DNA of 64,000 nt from Corallococcus sp. NCRR (GTDB lineage: Bacteria; Myxococcota; Myxococcia; Myxococcales; Myxococcaceae): contig NZ_CP114039.1 in the NCBI RefSeq assembly GCF_026965535.1, positions 6,758,001 to 6,822,000 on the forward strand, in the 5' to 3' direction. The notes under the pieces were generated by a model that saw nothing but the letters and a program-made list of their open reading frames with translations, made no database searches and was not told where the DNA came from. Below, one piece after another: positions 8,904 to 16,593 of this stretch. Made by a program: the position numbers and the translations under genes. Each line of letters opens with the position of its first letter. The first letter of the stretch is position 1.

Positions 8904-9746
8904 ATGAACGAACAGACCTTCATGAAGTTGATGCGCGTGCTGCCCAAGTCGGCGGTGTCCTCCGCGGTGGGCCTGGCCACGCGCCTGCCCGCGCCCGCGC
9001 CGGTGCACCACTGGGCCATGCGCACCTTCGCCAAGGCGTACAACGTGGACATGGAGGAGGCGGAGCACTCCTTCGAGAAGTACCCGACCTTCGCCCAGTT
9101 CTTCACCCGCGGCCTGAAGCCGGGCCTGCGCCCGGTGGACGCCGGCGAGAAGGTCGTCGTGTCCCCGGTGGACGGCCGGGTGTCCCAGGTGGGCTACGCG
9201 GACAACGGCCGCTGCCTGCAGGCCAAGGGCATTGAGTACACGGTGGACGAGCTGTTGGGCGACGCGCAGGCGGCGAAGCCCTTCCACGGCGGCGCCTGGA
9301 CGACGGTGTACCTGTCCCCGCGCGACTACCACCGCATCCACTCGCCGCTGGGCGGCACCATCACCGGGTACGCGTACATCCCGGGTGAGTTCTGGCCGGT
9401 GAACCCCGCGTCGGTGAAGAACAAGCAGTCGCTGTTCTGCGTGAACGAGCGGCTCGTCACGTACCTGGACACCGTGGCCGGCAAGGTGGCGGTGGTGAAG
9501 GTGGGCGCCACCTGCGTGTCGCGCATCAAGGCGTCCTACGAGGACATCACCACGCACGTGGGCCAGCCCGGCAAGGTGCACAGCTACAGCGCGGGCATCC
9601 CGGTGGAGAAGGGCGGCGAATTGGGCCGCTTCGAGATGGGCTCCACCGTCATCCTCTGCTTCGAGCCCGGCCGCGTGCGCTGGGACGACAGCATGCAGCC
9701 CGAAGCGGTGGTGCGCATGGGCACGCGTATCGGAGTCATCACGTGA
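8904..9746 (+). CDS. psd: Phosphatidylserine decarboxylase proenzyme
   Basis: 280 residues. It converts phosphatidylserine to phosphatidylethanolamine at the inner membrane. The self-cleavage site is visible as MGST within GRFEMGSTVILCFEPG; the Ser becomes the pyruvoyl cofactor of the short alpha chain. Other family marks are FFTRGLKPGLRPV, SPVDGRV and the HRIHSPLGG histidine motif. Its TGA overlaps the GTG of hisS by 4 bases, so membrane lipid synthesis and histidyl-tRNA synthesis genes are cotranslated here, which is an unusual pairing. Confidence 0.95.
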   Translation: MNEQTFMKLMRVLPKSAVSSAVGLATRLPAPAPVHHWAMRTFAKAYNVDMEEAEHSFEKYPTFAQFFTRGLKPGLRPVDAGEKVVVSPVDGRVSQVGYADNGRCLQAKGIEYTVDELLGDAQAAKPFHGGAWTTVYLSPRDYHRIHSPLGGTITGYAYIPGEFWPVNPASVKNKQSLFCVNERLVTYLDTVAGKVAVVKVGATCVSRIKASYEDITTHVGQPGKVHSYSAGIPVEKGGELGRFEMGSTVILCFEPGRVRWDDSMQPEAVVRMGTRIGVIT

Positions 9747-11035
9747 GCCAGAAGATCAACGGCGTGAAGGGGATGAACGACCTTCTGCCGGGCGAAATCG
9801 AGATCTGGCAGTTCGTCGAGTCCACGGCGCGCACGCTGTTCGGCCGCTTTGGCTACGGCGAGGTGCGCACGCCGATGGTGGAGGACACGGCCCTCTTCGT
9901 GCGCAGCGTGGGCGAGGAGACGGACATCGTCGGCAAGGAGATGTACACCTTCGAGGACAAGGGCGGCCGCAGCCTGTCCCTGCGTCCGGAGGGCACCGCG
10001 CCCGCGGCGCGCGCGTACATCGAGCACTCGGTGAACAACCAGGAGCCGGTGTCCCGCTGGTTCTACATGGGGCCCATGTTCCGCTACGAGCGGATGAAGA
10101 CGGGCCGCTACCGCCAGTTCTACCAGATTGGCGCGGAGGCCTACGGCGCGAAGGAGCCCGCGCAGGACGCGGAGCTGATGGACGTGGTGGTGCAGTTCCT
10201 GGAGGCCCTGGGCCTCACGGACATCAGCCTGAACATCAACTCGCTGGGCGACGACAACTGCCGGCCCGCGTACCACGCGAAGCTGGTGGAGTACCTCAAC
10301 GCGCACCGGGAAGAGCTGTGCGCGGACTGCCAGCAGCGGCTGGAGCGCAACCCGCTGCGCGTCCTGGACTGCAAGAACGAGAAGTGCCAGGCGGTGGCCG
10401 CCGCCGGGCCCAACGTGCTCGAGTTCCTGTGCGAGCCGTGCCGCGCGCACTTCACGGACCTGCAGCGCAAGCTGGGCGTGCTGGGCATCAAGTACGTGGT
10501 GAACCACCGGCTGGTGCGCGGCCTGGACTACTACACGCGCACCGTCTTCGAGTTCATCGCCTCGCACCCCGCGCTGGGCACCGCCAGCACGGTGGGCGGC
10601 GGCGGGCGCTACGACAAGATGATGAAGGGCCTGGGCGGGCCGGACGTGCCCGCGGTGGGCTACGCCATGGGCCTGGACCGGCTGGTGCTGCTGCTCAAGG
10701 AGAGCGGCAAGACGTTCGTCCAGCGGCCGGACCTGTTCATCGCCGTGGCGGACGAGGGCTCGCAGGACGAGGGTCTGAAGCTGGCCAGCCGCCTGCGCCG
10801 CGAGGGCCTCAAGGTGGACTTCGACACGCGCGGCGGCAGCCTCAAGAGCCAGATGAAGCGCGCGGACAAGTCCGGCGCCCGCTTCACGCTGGTGCTGGGC
10901 GAGCAGGAGCGCACCACGGGCCAGGCGAAGCTCAAGCCCATGGCGGGCGGAGAGCCCGTCCCCGTGGCGCTCGACAGCGTCGCCGCCACCGTGCGCGCGC
11001 AGCCGGACGCTCCGGCTCCGGTCCCCACGGCCTGA
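9743..11035 (+). CDS. hisS: Histidyl-tRNA synthetase
   Basis: 430 residues, normal for bacterial HisRS. Class II motifs are present: motif 2 region FRYERMKTGRYRQFYQIG, the histidine-specific loop GLDYYTRTVFEF and the glycine-rich GGGGRYDKM, and a C-terminal anticodon-binding domain (from about residue 325). The GTG start overlaps the psd stop. Confidence 0.96.
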   Translation: MSQKINGVKGMNDLLPGEIEIWQFVESTARTLFGRFGYGEVRTPMVEDTALFVRSVGEETDIVGKEMYTFEDKGGRSLSLRPEGTAPAARAYIEHSVNNQEPVSRWFYMGPMFRYERMKTGRYRQFYQIGAEAYGAKEPAQDAELMDVVVQFLEALGLTDISLNINSLGDDNCRPAYHAKLVEYLNAHREELCADCQQRLERNPLRVLDCKNEKCQAVAAAGPNVLEFLCEPCRAHFTDLQRKLGVLGIKYVVNHRLVRGLDYYTRTVFEFIASHPALGTASTVGGGGRYDKMMKGLGGPDVPAVGYAMGLDRLVLLLKESGKTFVQRPDLFIAVADEGSQDEGLKLASRLRREGLKVDFDTRGGSLKSQMKRADKSGARFTLVLGEQERTTGQAKLKPMAGGEPVPVALDSVAATVRAQPDAPAPVPTA

Positions 11036-11206: not shown

Positions 11207-11617
11207 ATGTCGAGCGCTCCGCAGCCCGTCTCCATGATCGATGGCCTCCGTTGGATCCCTGTCGCCGGGGACAGCATGTGGCCGTCTTTGCGTGCGGGGG
11301 ACGTGGCGGAGGTGGAGCCGCTGGTGGAGGCGCCGCGCCCGGGTGAGGTGGTGCTGGCGCGCTTCGAGTCCTCGCTGGTGCTGCACCGGGTTCGCTGGTG
11401 CGACGGCAGCTTCTGCGCGCTTCGCGGGGACAATGGCGGCATGGAAGATCCGCCGCTGCCTCTCATCCGTATCCTGGGACGCGCGCGGCGTGTGCGCCGG
11501 GGCGGGACGCTGTTGGAGATGGACCGTTGGGACGTGGGGCCGCGGCGGCTGGGCCGCTGGCGCGCGACGCTGAAGCGCCAGGTGGCCGCGTGGCTGGGAA
11601 GGACGGTCCGCGCATGA
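11207..11617 (+). CDS. Soluble S26-type (Sec11/SipW-like) peptidase domain protein
   Basis: 136 residues from the ATG at 11207; an in-frame ATG at 11153 would add 18. The sequence follows the Sec11/SipW branch of the S26 peptidases: GDSMWPSL gives the nucleophile Ser23, LVLHRV gives His60 in place of the Lys used by ordinary signal peptidase I, and LRGDNGGMED supplies the acidic residues Asp75 and Asp81. Unlike signal peptidases it has no transmembrane segment, so it should act in the cytoplasm. It is the first gene of a coupled operon (ATGA overlap with the PqqD gene). Processing of the 51-residue peptide encoded downstream is an attractive guess. Confidence 0.8.
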   Translation: MSSAPQPVSMIDGLRWIPVAGDSMWPSLRAGDVAEVEPLVEAPRPGEVVLARFESSLVLHRVRWCDGSFCALRGDNGGMEDPPLPLIRILGRARRVRRGGTLLEMDRWDVGPRRLGRWRATLKRQVAAWLGRTVRA

Positions 11618-11928
11618 GCTTTCAGGAAGGCAGCGTTCCCCGGCGGCGTCTGGGGACCTCGGGGGAGGGCTTCGGCGCGGACTTCCTGGTGCTGGACGCG
11701 GAGGGGCGCACGCTGCGCGGGCTCAACCCCACGGCGGCGCGCATCTGGGCGCTGTGCGACGGACAGCGCACGGCCCGGGCGGTGGCGGAGCAGGTGGCTT
11801 CCGAGTTTTCGACCGACGTCGGTCCGGTGCTGACCGACACGCTGCGCTTCCTGGAGGAGCTTCAGCGGCGGGGCCTGTTGGACGAAGTGCGCGCGCCGGC
11901 CGGTGCCGCGCCTCTGGAGGAAACATGA
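11614..11928 (+). CDS. PqqD-like peptide-binding (RRE) protein
   Basis: 104 residues, about the size of PqqD proteins. The core (residues 20-90) has the typical order: beta-strands around FLVLDAEGRTLRGLNPTAAR, the IWALCDGQRTARAVAEQV helix-turn region, and a closing amphipathic helix (DTLRFLEELQRRGLL). PqqD-family domains bind leader peptides of ribosomally made peptides and present them to modifying enzymes. Its start overlaps the peptidase stop and its stop overlaps the next start, so it is embedded in the operon. Confidence 0.85.
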   Translation: MSFQEGSVPRRRLGTSGEGFGADFLVLDAEGRTLRGLNPTAARIWALCDGQRTARAVAEQVASEFSTDVGPVLTDTLRFLEELQRRGLLDEVRAPAGAAPLEET

Positions 11929-12536
11929 TGCGGGCGCTCGTGGCCGTGCTGGCGGGTGCAATGGTGCTGTCGGCGTGCTCGGAAGGGGTGTCCCCCCTGC
12001 CGCCGCCTTCGGCCGTGAAGCCGGGGCAGGGCAGCGGTTCCTCCGCCCCCGTGGATCCGACGGACGTGCTGGCCGGTGGTGGGAGCGTGGCCCGGCCGCC
12101 GCCTTCGGCCCCCGCGGGCGAAGAGCCGCCCCCGGAAGAGCCGCCTCCAGAAGAGCCGCCTCCAGAAGAGCCGCCTCCGGAAGAAGAGCCGCCGCCGGCG
12201 CCGCTGCCGCCCCCGACCGGGAGCGCGGAGGTGGTGGGCGCGGGTTCGGAGCCCACGCCCCTGTCCCGGGTACAGCAGGTGGACGTGGACTTCGTGGTGA
12301 GCGGCGTGCGGAACAAGGGCCTGGTGGACGTGGAGTTCATCGCGCCGGGCGGCCGTCCGTATGAGAAGCGGAGCGCGACGGTGGTGGCGCCGCCGGAGGA
12401 GACGCGGACGCTGCGCTACTCGCTGCCGGTGGCGGGCACGCCGGTGTCCATGACGCGCATGACGGGCACCTGGCAGGTGCGCTTCTTCCTGGATGGGGCG
12501 CAGCTGGCCGCCACGTCCTTCACCCTGGAGCCGTGA
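11925..12536 (+). CDS. Lipoprotein with Pro/Glu repeat linker
   Basis: 203 residues. Signal peptide with lipobox (MVLSAC, Cys18). Residues about 45-95 form a low-complexity Pro/Glu linker built on EEPPP units. The C-terminal domain (about 100-203) is beta-rich and ends FTLEP; VDFVVSGVRNKGLVDVEFIAPGG (quoted in parts: VDFVVSGVRNKG, VDVEFIAPGG) resembles an Ig-like or adhesin fold. A second ATG directly follows the first (11928). The linker would let the domain reach away from the membrane. It is cotranslated with the PqqD gene and precedes the large secreted protein. Confidence 0.82.
   Translation: MMRALVAVLAGAMVLSACSEGVSPLPPPSAVKPGQGSGSSAPVDPTDVLAGGGSVARPPPSAPAGEEPPPEEPPPEEPPPEEPPPEEEPPPAPLPPPTGSAEVVGAGSEPTPLSRVQQVDVDFVVSGVRNKGLVDVEFIAPGGRPYEKRSATVVAPPEETRTLRYSLPVAGTPVSMTRMTGTWQVRFFLDGAQLAATSFTLEP
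12120..12179 (+). repeat. Four tandem 15-bp units coding EEPPP
   Basis: Four units of GAAGAGCCGCC(C/T)CC(G/A) run head to tail and are followed by a partial, altered unit. Units 2 and 3 are identical. Being a multiple of three, changes in copy number would lengthen or shorten the Pro/Glu linker of the lipoprotein without breaking the frame. Confidence 0.9.
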
Positions 12537-12549
12537 CGTGAGGCACGCC

Positions 12550-14022
12550 ATGAACGTCCGCATCCTCGCGCTCTTCGCCGTGCTGCTGCCCGCGGTGGGC
12601 TTCTCCCAGACGACCTGGACCGTGCGCCCCGTCCCCTCCGCCGGAGAGACCGTCGCGCGCGTGGTGATGGAGGACGCGTCCGACCTCGTCCTGGAGGTGA
12701 CGAACACGAGCACGTCCACCAACGACTCCCGCCTGTCGGAGGTGTCCTTCGTCCTGCCGGCGGGCTACCAGCTGCTGGGGGGCCTGCCCGCGGAGGAGAA
12801 CCCGCACTGGAAGGTCGAGTACATCGACGCCAACGAGCGGCGCATCACCTTCCAGTCCACGCGGGGCTGCGTGGACGAGGGGCGGGGCCTGGCCAACAAC
12901 GAGTCCGCGCGCTTCGTGCTGAGCGTGGTGGGCCCGGCCAACCGCAACACCGACAGCACCACCGAACGCCTGGTGGCGGGGACGTACGCCCGCGACCAGT
13001 GCGACGGCAGGAGCTACACGTACAACGTCAACGCCATGACCGCCTGGACGCGGAGCATCCTGGCCGCGAACGTGACGCTGGCGCCGCGGGTGCTGGCGGT
13101 CAACGGCTCCACCGTGGCGCGCGTGGTGGTGGAGAACCGCGGCACCGGCGCGGCCACCGTGTCCGTGGACAACCCCACCTCCACGAGCAACGTGCCCCTC
13201 ACCACCGTGACCAAGGACGGCGGCAGGTCCGTGGCGGTGCGCGCCGCGGGTGTCTTCGCGGTCAATCTGAGGCCCACCGCCGCCGGCGCCGTGGCCGCGC
13301 GCGTCCGGGCGCGCACGAGCACCGCGAACGCGCCGCTGGTGGACTCGCCCCTGGCGAACGTGGGCAACCTGGTCGCGGCGGCGGACATGGACATCGTAGA
13401 CGCGTTCAGCGCGGAGCAGGTGACGCTGCGCCTGATCGTGTTCAACACGTCCACCACGAACACGTACACGCAGGTGCGCCCGCGCGCGCCGGTGCTGCTG
13501 GGCAGCGCGACGGCGTCGCTCGTGTCCGGGCCGTCGCCGGAGAGCGTGGCGCAGCTGGCCCCGGGCGCCTCCGCCCAGTTCACCTGGCGCTACCAGGTGT
13601 CGGGCTCGCCCGGCGCCAGCTACCAGTTCCAGGCGCAGGTGGACGGGACGCTCAACGGTTCGTCGGTGGCGGGGGACCCGGTCACGGCTCGCAAGGGCCG
13701 CATCGTGGAGCACCGCGTGCGGCTGAGCCAGGAGACGGTGTCCACGGCGGCCACGTCCCTGACGGTGGCGTACACGGTGCAGAACCGGGGCACGCTGCCC
13801 ATCTACGAGGTGAAGCTGTTCAAGCCCGCGGTGAACTACTTCGCGGTGGCCGCGTCGGGGCCGCAGCCGTTCGGCGACTGGAACGTCTACACGGACGCGA
13901 CCGGCTACCTCTGGGAGTCGGAGTCCGGCATCCCGGTGGGTGGCGAGGCCACCTTCCGCATCACCTATTCGGGCTTCACCGCCGTCCTCTCGGACACGGC
14001 GTTCGCCACCGGTTGGAGCTGA
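12550..14022 (+). CDS. N-terminal part of the large secreted protein (Ig-like domains)
   Basis: 490 codons of open frame. A signal peptide (about residues 1-19, ending GFSQ) is followed by several beta-rich, Thr/Ser/Val-dense modules with the look of CARDB or Ig-like domains, e.g. VARVVVENRGTGAATVSV and LTVAYTVQNRGTLPIYEV. Two cysteines (GCVDEG, DQCDGR) may form one disulfide. A stand-alone product would end in GWS at the first frame break. The next frame supplies a fibronectin-III-like module (GSVTLTWDNPF ... GTTYFYRVFNAD). Confidence 0.75.
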   Translation: MNVRILALFAVLLPAVGFSQTTWTVRPVPSAGETVARVVMEDASDLVLEVTNTSTSTNDSRLSEVSFVLPAGYQLLGGLPAEENPHWKVEYIDANERRITFQSTRGCVDEGRGLANNESARFVLSVVGPANRNTDSTTERLVAGTYARDQCDGRSYTYNVNAMTAWTRSILAANVTLAPRVLAVNGSTVARVVVENRGTGAATVSVDNPTSTSNVPLTTVTKDGGRSVAVRAAGVFAVNLRPTAAGAVAARVRARTSTANAPLVDSPLANVGNLVAAADMDIVDAFSAEQVTLRLIVFNTSTTNTYTQVRPRAPVLLGSATASLVSGPSPESVAQLAPGASAQFTWRYQVSGSPGASYQFQAQVDGTLNGSSVAGDPVTARKGRIVEHRVRLSQETVSTAATSLTVAYTVQNRGTLPIYEVKLFKPAVNYFAVAASGPQPFGDWNVYTDATGYLWESESGIPVGGEATFRITYSGFTAVLSDTAFATGWS

Positions 14023-14503
14023 ACCAGGGCTGGAACGATCCGCGCATCCGCGTGGAGGCGACGATGACGCTGCTCGCGGTCACCGCTGCGCCGGACGTGG
14101 AGCGCCTCACGGGCGTGGCCCGCGACGGCAGCGTGACGCTCACGTGGGACAACCCCTTCAACCACGGCGGCACCCTGGTGCTGCGCGCGGTGGGGGCGAC
14201 GCCCGACACCGCGCCGACGAGCGGCGTGCACTACGCGCCAGGCGAGGCGCTGGGCAACGCGACGGTGGCCTACGTGGACGAGTTCAGCTCCGCGTCGTCC
14301 GTCACGGACACGGCGGTGACGAACGGCACGACGTACTTCTACCGCGTGTTCAACGCGGATGATCAGCTGCGGTACGGGCCGGGCAACCAGCCCACCTCGG
14401 TGGGCCTGCTGGCCACGCCCCGGGCGCGCGTGGCGGGCAACCCGCTGTGGTGCTACTCGGTGGGCCTGGCCTCGCGGCACCAGCCCATCACGGAGCTGGG
14501 CGT

Positions 14504-15577
14504 GGCATCTTCTCCTCCTTCAACGATTCGGTGGTGGGCGTCCTCACGAACACCGCGAACCCGTCCGAGGACGGCGCCGAGCGGTTCCGGCCCGTGAAGA
14601 TGCCGAGCACGATTGGCAGCCGCTTCCCGGTGGTGCCGCTGCTGGGCCGGCCCGGACAGCAGTGGCTCGTCGTGGGCGACGAGTCCGGTGTGCCGGCGGT
14701 GATCAACGCGGCCACGGGCGAGTTCCTCTGGAAGAACACCACGCTGGGCCTGGGGCGCATCAGCTCGTTCCCGGTGACGCAGCTGCTCGACTACGCGAAC
14801 CCGGAGTACCGGACGACGTACTCGAACGTGGACCTGGCCATCTTCGCCACGCGCAACTCGTCCGCGCAGAACCAGGTGGTCGCGCTGAACGCGGCCACCG
14901 GCGCGCTCATCTGGCGCTACCGGCCCGGGGACCTGGGCATGGTGACCGGCAGCATGCTGGTGGACTACTCGAAGAACCGGCTCTACGTGGCGACGGCCTC
15001 TGGCGTGAGCACGGACACTCTGCGCGTGCTCAACAGCCTCACGGGCGCGGAGGTCGCGCGGCTGGAGCTGGGCGACCTGGAGTACGGCGTGGTCCGCAAC
15101 GCCACGAGCAACCAGATCCTGGTCACCGCCAATGACGGCCGGGTGTACGGCGTGAGTCCGGACAACCATTCCAGGGTCTGGACGGCCGCCGTGCGGTCCG
15201 GCACGGCGCAGGCGTTCACCCACTTCGCGAGGCCCCAGGGCCGGGGCTTCATCGTGGCCACGGAGGACAACAAGGTCGAGCGCTACGAGGTGGTCGAGGC
15301 GAACGGGACCGGTGTGCCCGAGCTGAAGTGGTCAGCGCCCATCCCGGCGCGCCCCACCGGTCTGTTCACCCTCAACCTGGGTGGCTCGGTGCGCGTCTAC
15401 GTTGGAAGCGCGGACGGCAAGGTGCACCAACTGGATGGCGAACTGGGGACCGAGACCGGGCAGGTGACCGTGGGCCCGGCGCAGAGGCTCTACACGCCGA
15501 CCATCGACCACACCGTGAACCGGTTGCATGTCGGTACCGAGGATGGTCGTATCTGTGCCTTCCCGGTGCCCTTCTAG
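14504..15577 (+). CDS. C-terminal part of the large secreted protein (PQQ-type beta-propeller)
   Basis: About 357 residues of seven- or eight-bladed propeller sequence. Blades carry the PQQ-repeat pattern of a Gly-Xaa-(Leu/Ile)-Xaa-Trp strand end: ATGEFLWKN, ATGALIWRY, NHSRVWTA, and VYVGSADGKVHQLDG. Such propellers bind cofactors or act as protein scaffolds. An internal ATG (14600) could start a separate product, but without a signal peptide. The stop TAG is shared with the AGGGAGG ribosome-binding site of the small peptide gene. Confidence 0.75.
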   Translation, partial: GIFSSFNDSVVGVLTNTANPSEDGAERFRPVKMPSTIGSRFPVVPLLGRPGQQWLVVGDESGVPAVINAATGEFLWKNTTLGLGRISSFPVTQLLDYANPEYRTTYSNVDLAIFATRNSSAQNQVVALNAATGALIWRYRPGDLGMVTGSMLVDYSKNRLYVATASGVSTDTLRVLNSLTGAEVARLELGDLEYGVVRNATSNQILVTANDGRVYGVSPDNHSRVWTAAVRSGTAQAFTHFARPQGRGFIVATEDNKVERYEVVEANGTGVPELKWSAPIPARPTGLFTLNLGGSVRVYVGSADGKVHQLDGELGTETGQVTVGPAQRLYTPTIDHTVNRLHVGTEDGRICAFPVPF

Positions 15578-15589
15578 GGAGGCCATCAC

Positions 15590-15745
15590 GTGAGACAACG
15601 CCCTTCACAGCCTCCCTCGGTACCGAAGCCGCCGGCCGCGCCCGCCGTGTACGTGCCTCCCGCCATCCTGTGGGAGCAGCCCTTCGTCGCGCTGGCGCAG
15701 CTGTCCATGTGCACCATCCCCGGCGAATCGGAGTGCGTGCCGTGA
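15590..15745 (+). CDS. 51-residue peptide, candidate modified-peptide precursor
   Basis: A short GTG-started frame with a strong AGGGAGG site 7 bases upstream; its TGA overlaps the GTG of the kinase gene, so it is surely translated. The N-half is Pro/Ala-rich. Residues 21-29 read YVPPAILWE, giving a YxxPxI motif like the RRE-binding YxxP motif of lasso-peptide leaders. The C-terminal part (from about residue 33) is short and contains Ser39, Cys41, Thr42, Pro44, Ser47 and Cys49 before a final Val-Pro. No signal peptide or membrane segment. Recognition by the PqqD-like protein and trimming by the S26 domain are inferred. Confidence 0.75.
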   Translation: MRQRPSQPPSVPKPPAAPAVYVPPAILWEQPFVALAQLSMCTIPGESECVP

Positions 15746-16593
15746 ACGGTGGGGACCCCCTGCCGGGTCCCCGTGACGGCGCGCTGCGGATCACCCTGGC
15801 CGGGTGGACCGTGGCGCTCGATGTGGAGGATGACGCGCTCGCCGGTCCGCTCCGGCGCGTGTTCGGCGCGTTCCTCGCTCCGGAGGCCGTGGCTCCCGAT
15901 GCCCGGCTGGTGATGCGCAACCCTCCCAGCCCCCAGGCTCCGCCCACCGTGCAGGAGCTGCCCCGGCTGACGCCTGGTGACTCGGGGACGCTGCGCGTGG
16001 AGGGCGCCGGGTACTCCGCGGTGCTCTCCGCGGACCGGTGCCACGCGGCGGTCATCGGATCCGGGCGGTACCCGGTGGAGAACGTGCTCAAGGTGATGCT
16101 CGCGTCCGCGCTGGCGAGGCGTGGCGGGCTGCTCATCCACGGCGTGGGGCTGGTGCACGAGGGCCGGGCCGCGCTCTTCGTCGGGCACTCCGGCGCGGGC
16201 AAGAGCACCCTGGGCGGGCTGTGGCGCGAGGCGGGCGGGACGGTGCTCGCGGATGAGCTGGTCGCGGTGTGGCCCGTGGAAGGCGGTGGGTGGCGCGCGG
16301 CGGGGACGCCCTGGAACGTGCCGGTCCGGACCGCCGAGGCGTCGCTCGTTGCCGTAGGCACACTGGGCTGGGACGCGGCCTCGCGGTGGGAGGCGCAGGG
16401 GGCGGGGGAGGTGGCCCGCGTGCTGCTGCTGAACGCGCTGTTGCCCGAGCCCACGCCCTCGGGCCGGGGAGCGCTGGTGGGCGCGGCCGGACGCGTGCTG
16501 TCGTCCGTGGAGACCGCCCGGCTCGTGTTCGCGCGGGACGCCAGCGCCGCGGAGGTGGTGCGGGCGCGGCTGGAGGCAGCGAGACCGCGATAG
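15742..16593 (+). CDS. HprK-like P-loop kinase
   Basis: 283 residues from a GTG overlapping the peptide gene. The central P-loop GHSGAGKST (residues 148-156) with the preceding GGLLIHGVGLVHEGRAALF strand and the following ADELVAV (general acid/base Asp region) matches the C-terminal catalytic domain of HPr kinase/phosphorylase and its relatives. The true HprK N-terminal domain and HPr are absent. Related kinases in lasso-peptide clusters phosphorylate a Ser of the precursor; Ser39, Thr42 or Ser47 of the adjoining peptide are possible targets (inference). Confidence 0.85.
   Translation: MNGGDPLPGPRDGALRITLAGWTVALDVEDDALAGPLRRVFGAFLAPEAVAPDARLVMRNPPSPQAPPTVQELPRLTPGDSGTLRVEGAGYSAVLSADRCHAAVIGSGRYPVENVLKVMLASALARRGGLLIHGVGLVHEGRAALFVGHSGAGKSTLGGLWREAGGTVLADELVAVWPVEGGGWRAAGTPWNVPVRTAEASLVAVGTLGWDAASRWEAQGAGEVARVLLLNALLPEPTPSGRGALVGAAGRVLSSVETARLVFARDASAAEVVRARLEAARPR

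Follow-up and report, generated by a model that had tools for sequence, protein, structure and literature searches.

The window, the whole 64,000-nucleotide stretch analysed here, comes from a genome of 9.79 Mb in a single contig (G000), and its gap between hisS (9743-11035) and miaA (at about 16.8 kb) is filled by six genes on the plus strand. These genes, with their signals and parts, are as follows:

11207 to 11617, plus strand: S24/S26 peptidase of the archaeal Sec11 type (Pfam PF00717, 4.6e-08; TIGR02228 below cut-off)
11614 to 11928, plus strand: PqqD-like RiPP recognition element, RRE (PF05402, 5.7e-15)
11928 to 12536, plus strand: lipoprotein with lipobox LSAC, Pro/Glu repeat linker and C-terminal beta-type domain (read from the sequence; 34-87% conserved among loci)
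about 12550 to 15577, plus strand: secreted protein with signal peptide, Ig-like part and C-terminal BamB/PQQ-type beta-propeller (PF13570/PF13360, about 1e-12)
15576 to 15582, plus strand: Shine-Dalgarno-like AGGGAGG, 5' of the peptide start
15590 to 15745, plus strand: precursor peptide of 51 residues, start GTG (ORF and ribosome-binding site)
15590 to 15697, plus strand: peptide leader, residues 1-36, with putative RRE-binding motif Y21-V-P-P24-A-I-L and predicted cleavage after Ala36 (invariant columns; low pN/pS)
15698 to 15745, plus strand: peptide core QLSMCTIPGESECVP and stop, with candidate phosphosite Ser39 (codon 15704-15706), Cys41 and Cys49 (invariant residues)
15742 to 16593, plus strand: HprK/PEPCK-fold kinase with His133, P-loop GHSGAGKST and Asp171-Glu172 (invariant residues; hhalign; fold model)

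The preliminary description had placed six frames on one strand here, and this layout is borne out. Three of the five junctions overlap, by four bases between the S26 and PqqD genes, by four between the peptide and HprK genes, and by one or four between the PqqD and lipoprotein genes depending on the choice of ATG. A scan for promoters and terminators gave no signal above chance, and a literature search found no published paper naming this operon.

The order psd-hisS-S26-PqqD-lipoprotein-propeller-peptide-kinase-miaA was mapped in the congeners (16 genomes in the window's genus), and the same hisS to miaA order is found in loci of genera g4, g8, g18 and g41, with 12 loci mapped in the large second genus; some contigs end inside the block, and for g8 the mapped stretch does not always reach miaA. 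The PqqD gene is present in 15 of 15 congeners at 85-99% identity. The genes that had been taken to form one operon are thus kept together in all congeners and in several genera, and because the same gene order recurs across them the operon is not an accident of position. The idea that the genes merely happen to sit by the housekeeping genes hisS and miaA, with the peptide outside any system, has next to no probability: the location is inherited vertically beside these genes, yet the parts stay together at changed loci (L108, L109 and L111) and are lost together, a co-occurrence that refutes it. At L111, a locus of a different family in the order, the six parts are all present again, arranged as S26-PqqD-peptide-propeller-lipoprotein-kinase.

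The proposed precursor peptide is conserved and has a translation signal in its ribosome-binding site, and by these marks its gene is real. The peptide alignment reads Y-x-[PA]-P-x-[IV]-[LV]-W-E-Q-x-F-[VI]-A-L-A-x-x-S and ends in a short tail where two Cys flank Pro-Gly; the leader consensus is YxPPx[IV]LWEQxFVALA, with the Y, P, W, E, Q, F, L and A columns invariant. In pairwise comparisons within genera, pN/pS is 0.015-0.08 for residues 21-36 compared to 0.3-0.7 for residues 37-51, and judged by these ratios the leader is under extreme purifying selection. In the core, Ser39, Cys41, Ile-Pro-Gly, Cys49 and Pro51 do not change in any of the 30 sequences with this tail length, which come from several genera. 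At more distant loci the tail is different (C-x4-C to C-x7-C), and the Ser is retained except at L052, which has Thr at the position of Ser39, and at L049, where the register is shifted. This is not the pattern expected of a variable bacteriocin. A profile search with the peptide gave matches in 56 of the 195 genomes of the phylum, 54 of them convincing and in the window's family; the peptide is found in 27 of 27 genomes of genus g41. A weak match in G027 (L110), part of a fusion with a glyoxalase-like frame, was set aside as chance. A PDB search with the peptide profile gave no meaningful match.

The enzymes encoded around the peptide can be compared with those of a class reported from Bacillota in May 2026, the linear polyphosphorylated peptides (LPP; PMC13381572). 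In the Paenibacillus alginolyticus system LppA/K/B/S/D/N, LppB is an RRE that binds YxxP, LppK phosphorylates Ser3 of the core, LppS is an archaeal-type signal peptidase (S29/H68/D93) whose cleavage is aided by the RRE, LppD is the exporter and LppN an NTP transferase (PMC13381572). Our comparison set was the P. alginolyticus locus and 14 relatives, reached via the LppB sequence from PDB 9x8z. The PqqD-like protein aligns to the LppB chain 9x8z_B free of gaps (profile comparison 2.7e-10), and the residues of the RRE pocket, N38 (40 of 40 sequences), D75 (38 of 40) and F79 (39 of 40), are equal to LppB N33, D70 and F74. The S26 protein, in which no hydrophobic helix or transmembrane segment was found, has a Ser23/His60/Asp75 triad that is invariant in 35 of 35 sequences and matches LppS at 3.9e-10 in hhalign, while a PDB search with it gave no meaningful match. 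The kinase matches LppK at 1e-13 in hhalign; its His, P-loop and Asp-Glu are invariant among homologues, and the His, P-loop and Asp are common to LppK and the paeninodin kinases. Its predicted structure matches the PEPCK and HprK folds, which we take as supporting only, since the mean pLDDT is 59.9. Strong S26 and kinase matches lie largely in the same genomes as the peptide and propeller.

Two loci vary in this respect. L049 has no S26 gene locally, and a second lipoprotein (L049:9075-9632), with a C-terminal domain as in the window's lipoprotein, stands upstream of PqqD at the place expected for S26. At L052 an OafA-like acyltransferase (L052:6565-7776) precedes PqqD, peptide and kinase, a possible extra modification.

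Like LPP, the operon combines an RRE, an HprK-like kinase, a soluble archaeal-type SpI peptidase and a short precursor in the absence of a cyclase; in the by-eye register, the leader pattern YxxPx[VI]L and a Ser 18 residues past the Tyr recur in both. As had been noted at the outset, none of the six genes encodes a cyclase, B2 protease or radical-SAM enzyme, and LPP clusters also lack all three (PMC13381572). The scheme in which PqqD, kinase and S26 proteins handle the peptide is supported, in that the genes co-occur, the peptide is conserved and LPP biochemistry has the same division of labour (PMC13381572). Neither of the two outcomes named beforehand as refuting it, loss of the peptide gene from homologous loci or a peptide with no conservation and no translation signal, was borne out. 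The accompanying statement that the system fits no named class is outdated, since LPP is now a named class with the same logic.

The precursors themselves are harder to join. Against the LPP precursor pattern YxxPxVLxHQxIxFETxxS, the window peptide agrees in register at Y, P, [VI], L, Q and S and departs at H, F, E and T (hhalign E 0.005; profile searches fail). Aligned by eye, with a slash at the register point, LppA reads YARPMVLSQQPVRFET/AQS compared to YVPPAILWEQPFVALA/QLS in the window, and L111, the most distant relative, reads LT/AAS compared to ET/AQS in LPP. A scoring matrix made from 12 LPP leaders and the published consensus ranks the window peptide about seventh of the window's 1027 ORFs, with 299 of 20,000 shuffles equally good, and the family leader HMM run against 6217 Paenibacillus ORFs did not retrieve LppA. 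Because of this weak rank and the failed reverse search the motif is a lead and not proof, and the attempt to prove homology of the peptide and LppA by sequence was dropped. Likewise, since profile searches in both directions fail to single out a match, the cut after Ala36 and the phosphorylation of Ser39 are predictions, resting on the by-eye register and on conservation.

How closely the window's system is related to LPP depends on what else the clusters hold and on the trees. It is unlikely that this is a plain LPP cluster, belonging to the Bacillota family proper and either passed on to myxobacteria or common to both. The same enzyme set, type of leader motif and catalytic residues would fit such membership, as would the remote homology of all three proteins and the NTP transferase gene directly upstream at L111, the sole linked case seen; in the window's own genome NTP_transf_5 genes occur only in unlinked places. 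In the kinase tree, however, the window type and L111 form one clade (92/82) apart from LppK and a second myxobacterial group, with LppK separated by long branches, while the RRE tree, which is too shallow to decide and gives no resolution at depth, does not join the window RRE to LPP. LPP clusters carry an MsbA-like exporter, whereas between hisS and miaA there is no room for an exporter in the window or its congeners. The window core is fixed and contains Cys, the rest of the leader differs, and the operon carries a lipoprotein and an Ig/propeller gene in a myxococcotal host; its locus is inherited vertically and is syntenic, unlike the patchy pattern of LPP, which was reported as restricted to Bacillota (PMC13381572). 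A search of plasmids with LppB gave no match. Our analysis thus indicates that the system probably works like LPP, but we do not file it as LPP because it has no linked exporter, no linked NTP transferase and no precursor cross-match, and the trees do not join the two.

Two further observations concern the genes compared. The window's genome holds two tandem NTP_transf_5 genes (L129, L130; G000:C1:3244342-3246192). In Paenibacillus, a secreted protein of 573 residues without a confident Pfam domain (L114:5145-6866) is encoded directly upstream of lppA and has a homologue in 15 of 15 LPP loci (L114-L128).

Other known systems share fewer parts. Paeninodin-type lasso clusters resemble the operon in their discrete RRE, leader recognition of the YxxP/WxxP kind and HprK-like kinase, but the operon lacks their macrolactam synthetase, B2 cysteine protease and ABC exporter. 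The HPr-rel-A/PqqD_rel_X pair (TIGR04352/TIGR04353) also joins an HprK-like kinase to a PqqD-like partner; here the scores, 20.1 of 200 bits and 20.9 of 35 bits, stay below the cut-offs. PQQ biosynthesis (PqqA/PqqD/PqqE) likewise uses a PqqD-like peptide chaperone, and the PqqD model TIGR03859 scores 32.6 against a cut-off of 46 bits. As a PqqD homologue and a PQQ-type propeller share one operon, the peptide might be thought a redox-cofactor precursor for a quinoprotein-like propeller, as PqqA is for PQQ. This is very improbable: the operon has no PqqE-like, radical-SAM or other oxidative gene, a parallel cassette (see below) has FG-GAP propellers, and what is conserved in the core is Cys, Ser, Pro and Gly, in place of the Glu/Tyr pair of PqqA.

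Our analysis suggests that the operon makes a conserved linear peptide, probably phosphorylated, together with an extracellular partner. The PqqD-like RRE would capture the leader via its Y21xxP24x[IV] motif, the HprK-like kinase would phosphorylate the core, most likely at Ser39, and the soluble S26 Ser-His-Asp enzyme would make its cut behind Ala36 on a leader presented by the RRE. The core set free would have about 15 residues, and its two Cys may be joined in a disulfide. We give RRE capture, Ser phosphorylation and S26 cleavage, which are read across from LPP and taken as one set, a probability of roughly two in three. The core could then reach the envelope through an exporter encoded outside the operon and act there alongside the lipoprotein and the Ig/propeller protein that Sec secretes, a step read from gene linkage and held with less confidence than the enzymatic set.

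The propeller is where this linkage is strongest. A secreted propeller protein was correctly recognized in the preliminary description, but it is not encoded in a single reading frame in this assembly: compared to 15 of 15 congeners, the window's gene is split by one missing base near 14004 and another near 14503, both in short homopolymers. The split is confined to this strain, each congener having a single ORF of about 1030-1050 codons, and from the sequence the two deletions could be either sequencing errors in the homopolymers or a recent loss in the strain. The propeller occurs in 58 of the 96 family genomes, including all 54 that bear the peptide, and 38 are without both; at the level of genera 10 have both, 2 the propeller only and 14 neither, the genome counts not being phylogenetically independent. 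The lipoprotein is linked to the propeller as well. In the four propeller genomes without a peptide match (L136-L139) another short gene directly follows the propeller; its products carry a WxAPx[VI] motif, LLC[ST]xG, six or so Cys and a GG end.

A second cassette occurs in about 25 genomes of the family, whether or not they also have the window type; it consists of PqqD, a secreted protein of 1800-2300 residues, a peptide, an HprK-like kinase and S26 (L145-L148, L150, L152-L160, L162-L168, L171, L172, L183 and L184; some contigs end before PqqD). The giant protein has Ig domains and C-terminal FG-GAP propeller repeats, the latter present in five of five proteins tested, and the peptide is mostly [KR]xYxxPx[VI]RSE[KR][IL]LVxxLF... 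Since FG-GAP and BamB-type propellers belong to different families, a secreted propeller seems, from these sequences, to have been combined with an RRE-handled peptide on more than one occasion, whether anew or by rebuilding. No other observation hints as strongly that peptide and propeller act together.

The modified peptide may go further and stay with the surface propeller for good, as a component, a ligand or a cross-link, so that the operon builds an envelope machine and not a natural product. We see this as a serious contender, though with less than an even chance. The near-obligate linkage to the propeller, the invariant rather than diversified core motif, the switched peptide family that still directly follows the propeller gene and the separate FG-GAP cassette with its other peptide all point that way; in G034 and G124 (L140-L143), however, the propellers have no adjacent peptide, and peptide and propeller are unlinked. 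We would tentatively generalize that several myxobacterial cassettes each encode a large secreted Ig/beta-propeller protein and, dedicated to it, a peptide that an RRE guides, a kinase modifies and an S26 enzyme cleaves; this peptide would be a fixed part of a surface machine and not a diversifying antibiotic. Such 'propeller-linked phosphopeptides' would be a new functional kind of RiPP, a proposal that we consider possible and short of probable.

Returning to the phosphorylated linear peptide and its extracellular partner, the novelty lies in the phylum, in a core that does not vary and in the near-obligate partners, a lipoprotein and an Ig/beta-propeller protein, and the system appears to be a new branch of a way of modifying peptides first described in 2026. 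LPP-like peptide modification would thereby be extended from Bacillota to a widespread trait of a family of predatory soil bacteria, and RiPP enzymes would be tied to dedicated secreted propeller proteins. With a fixed core, a near-obligate partner and readily grown genera, the role of the peptide is testable by gene deletion.

Short Cys-rich peptides with a KxY..P motif also directly follow giant ORFs at three further loci (L161:5147-5371, L173:4236-4457 and L179:4458-4658), where no S26 gene adjoins and the nearest kinase gene lies some 3-4 kb off.
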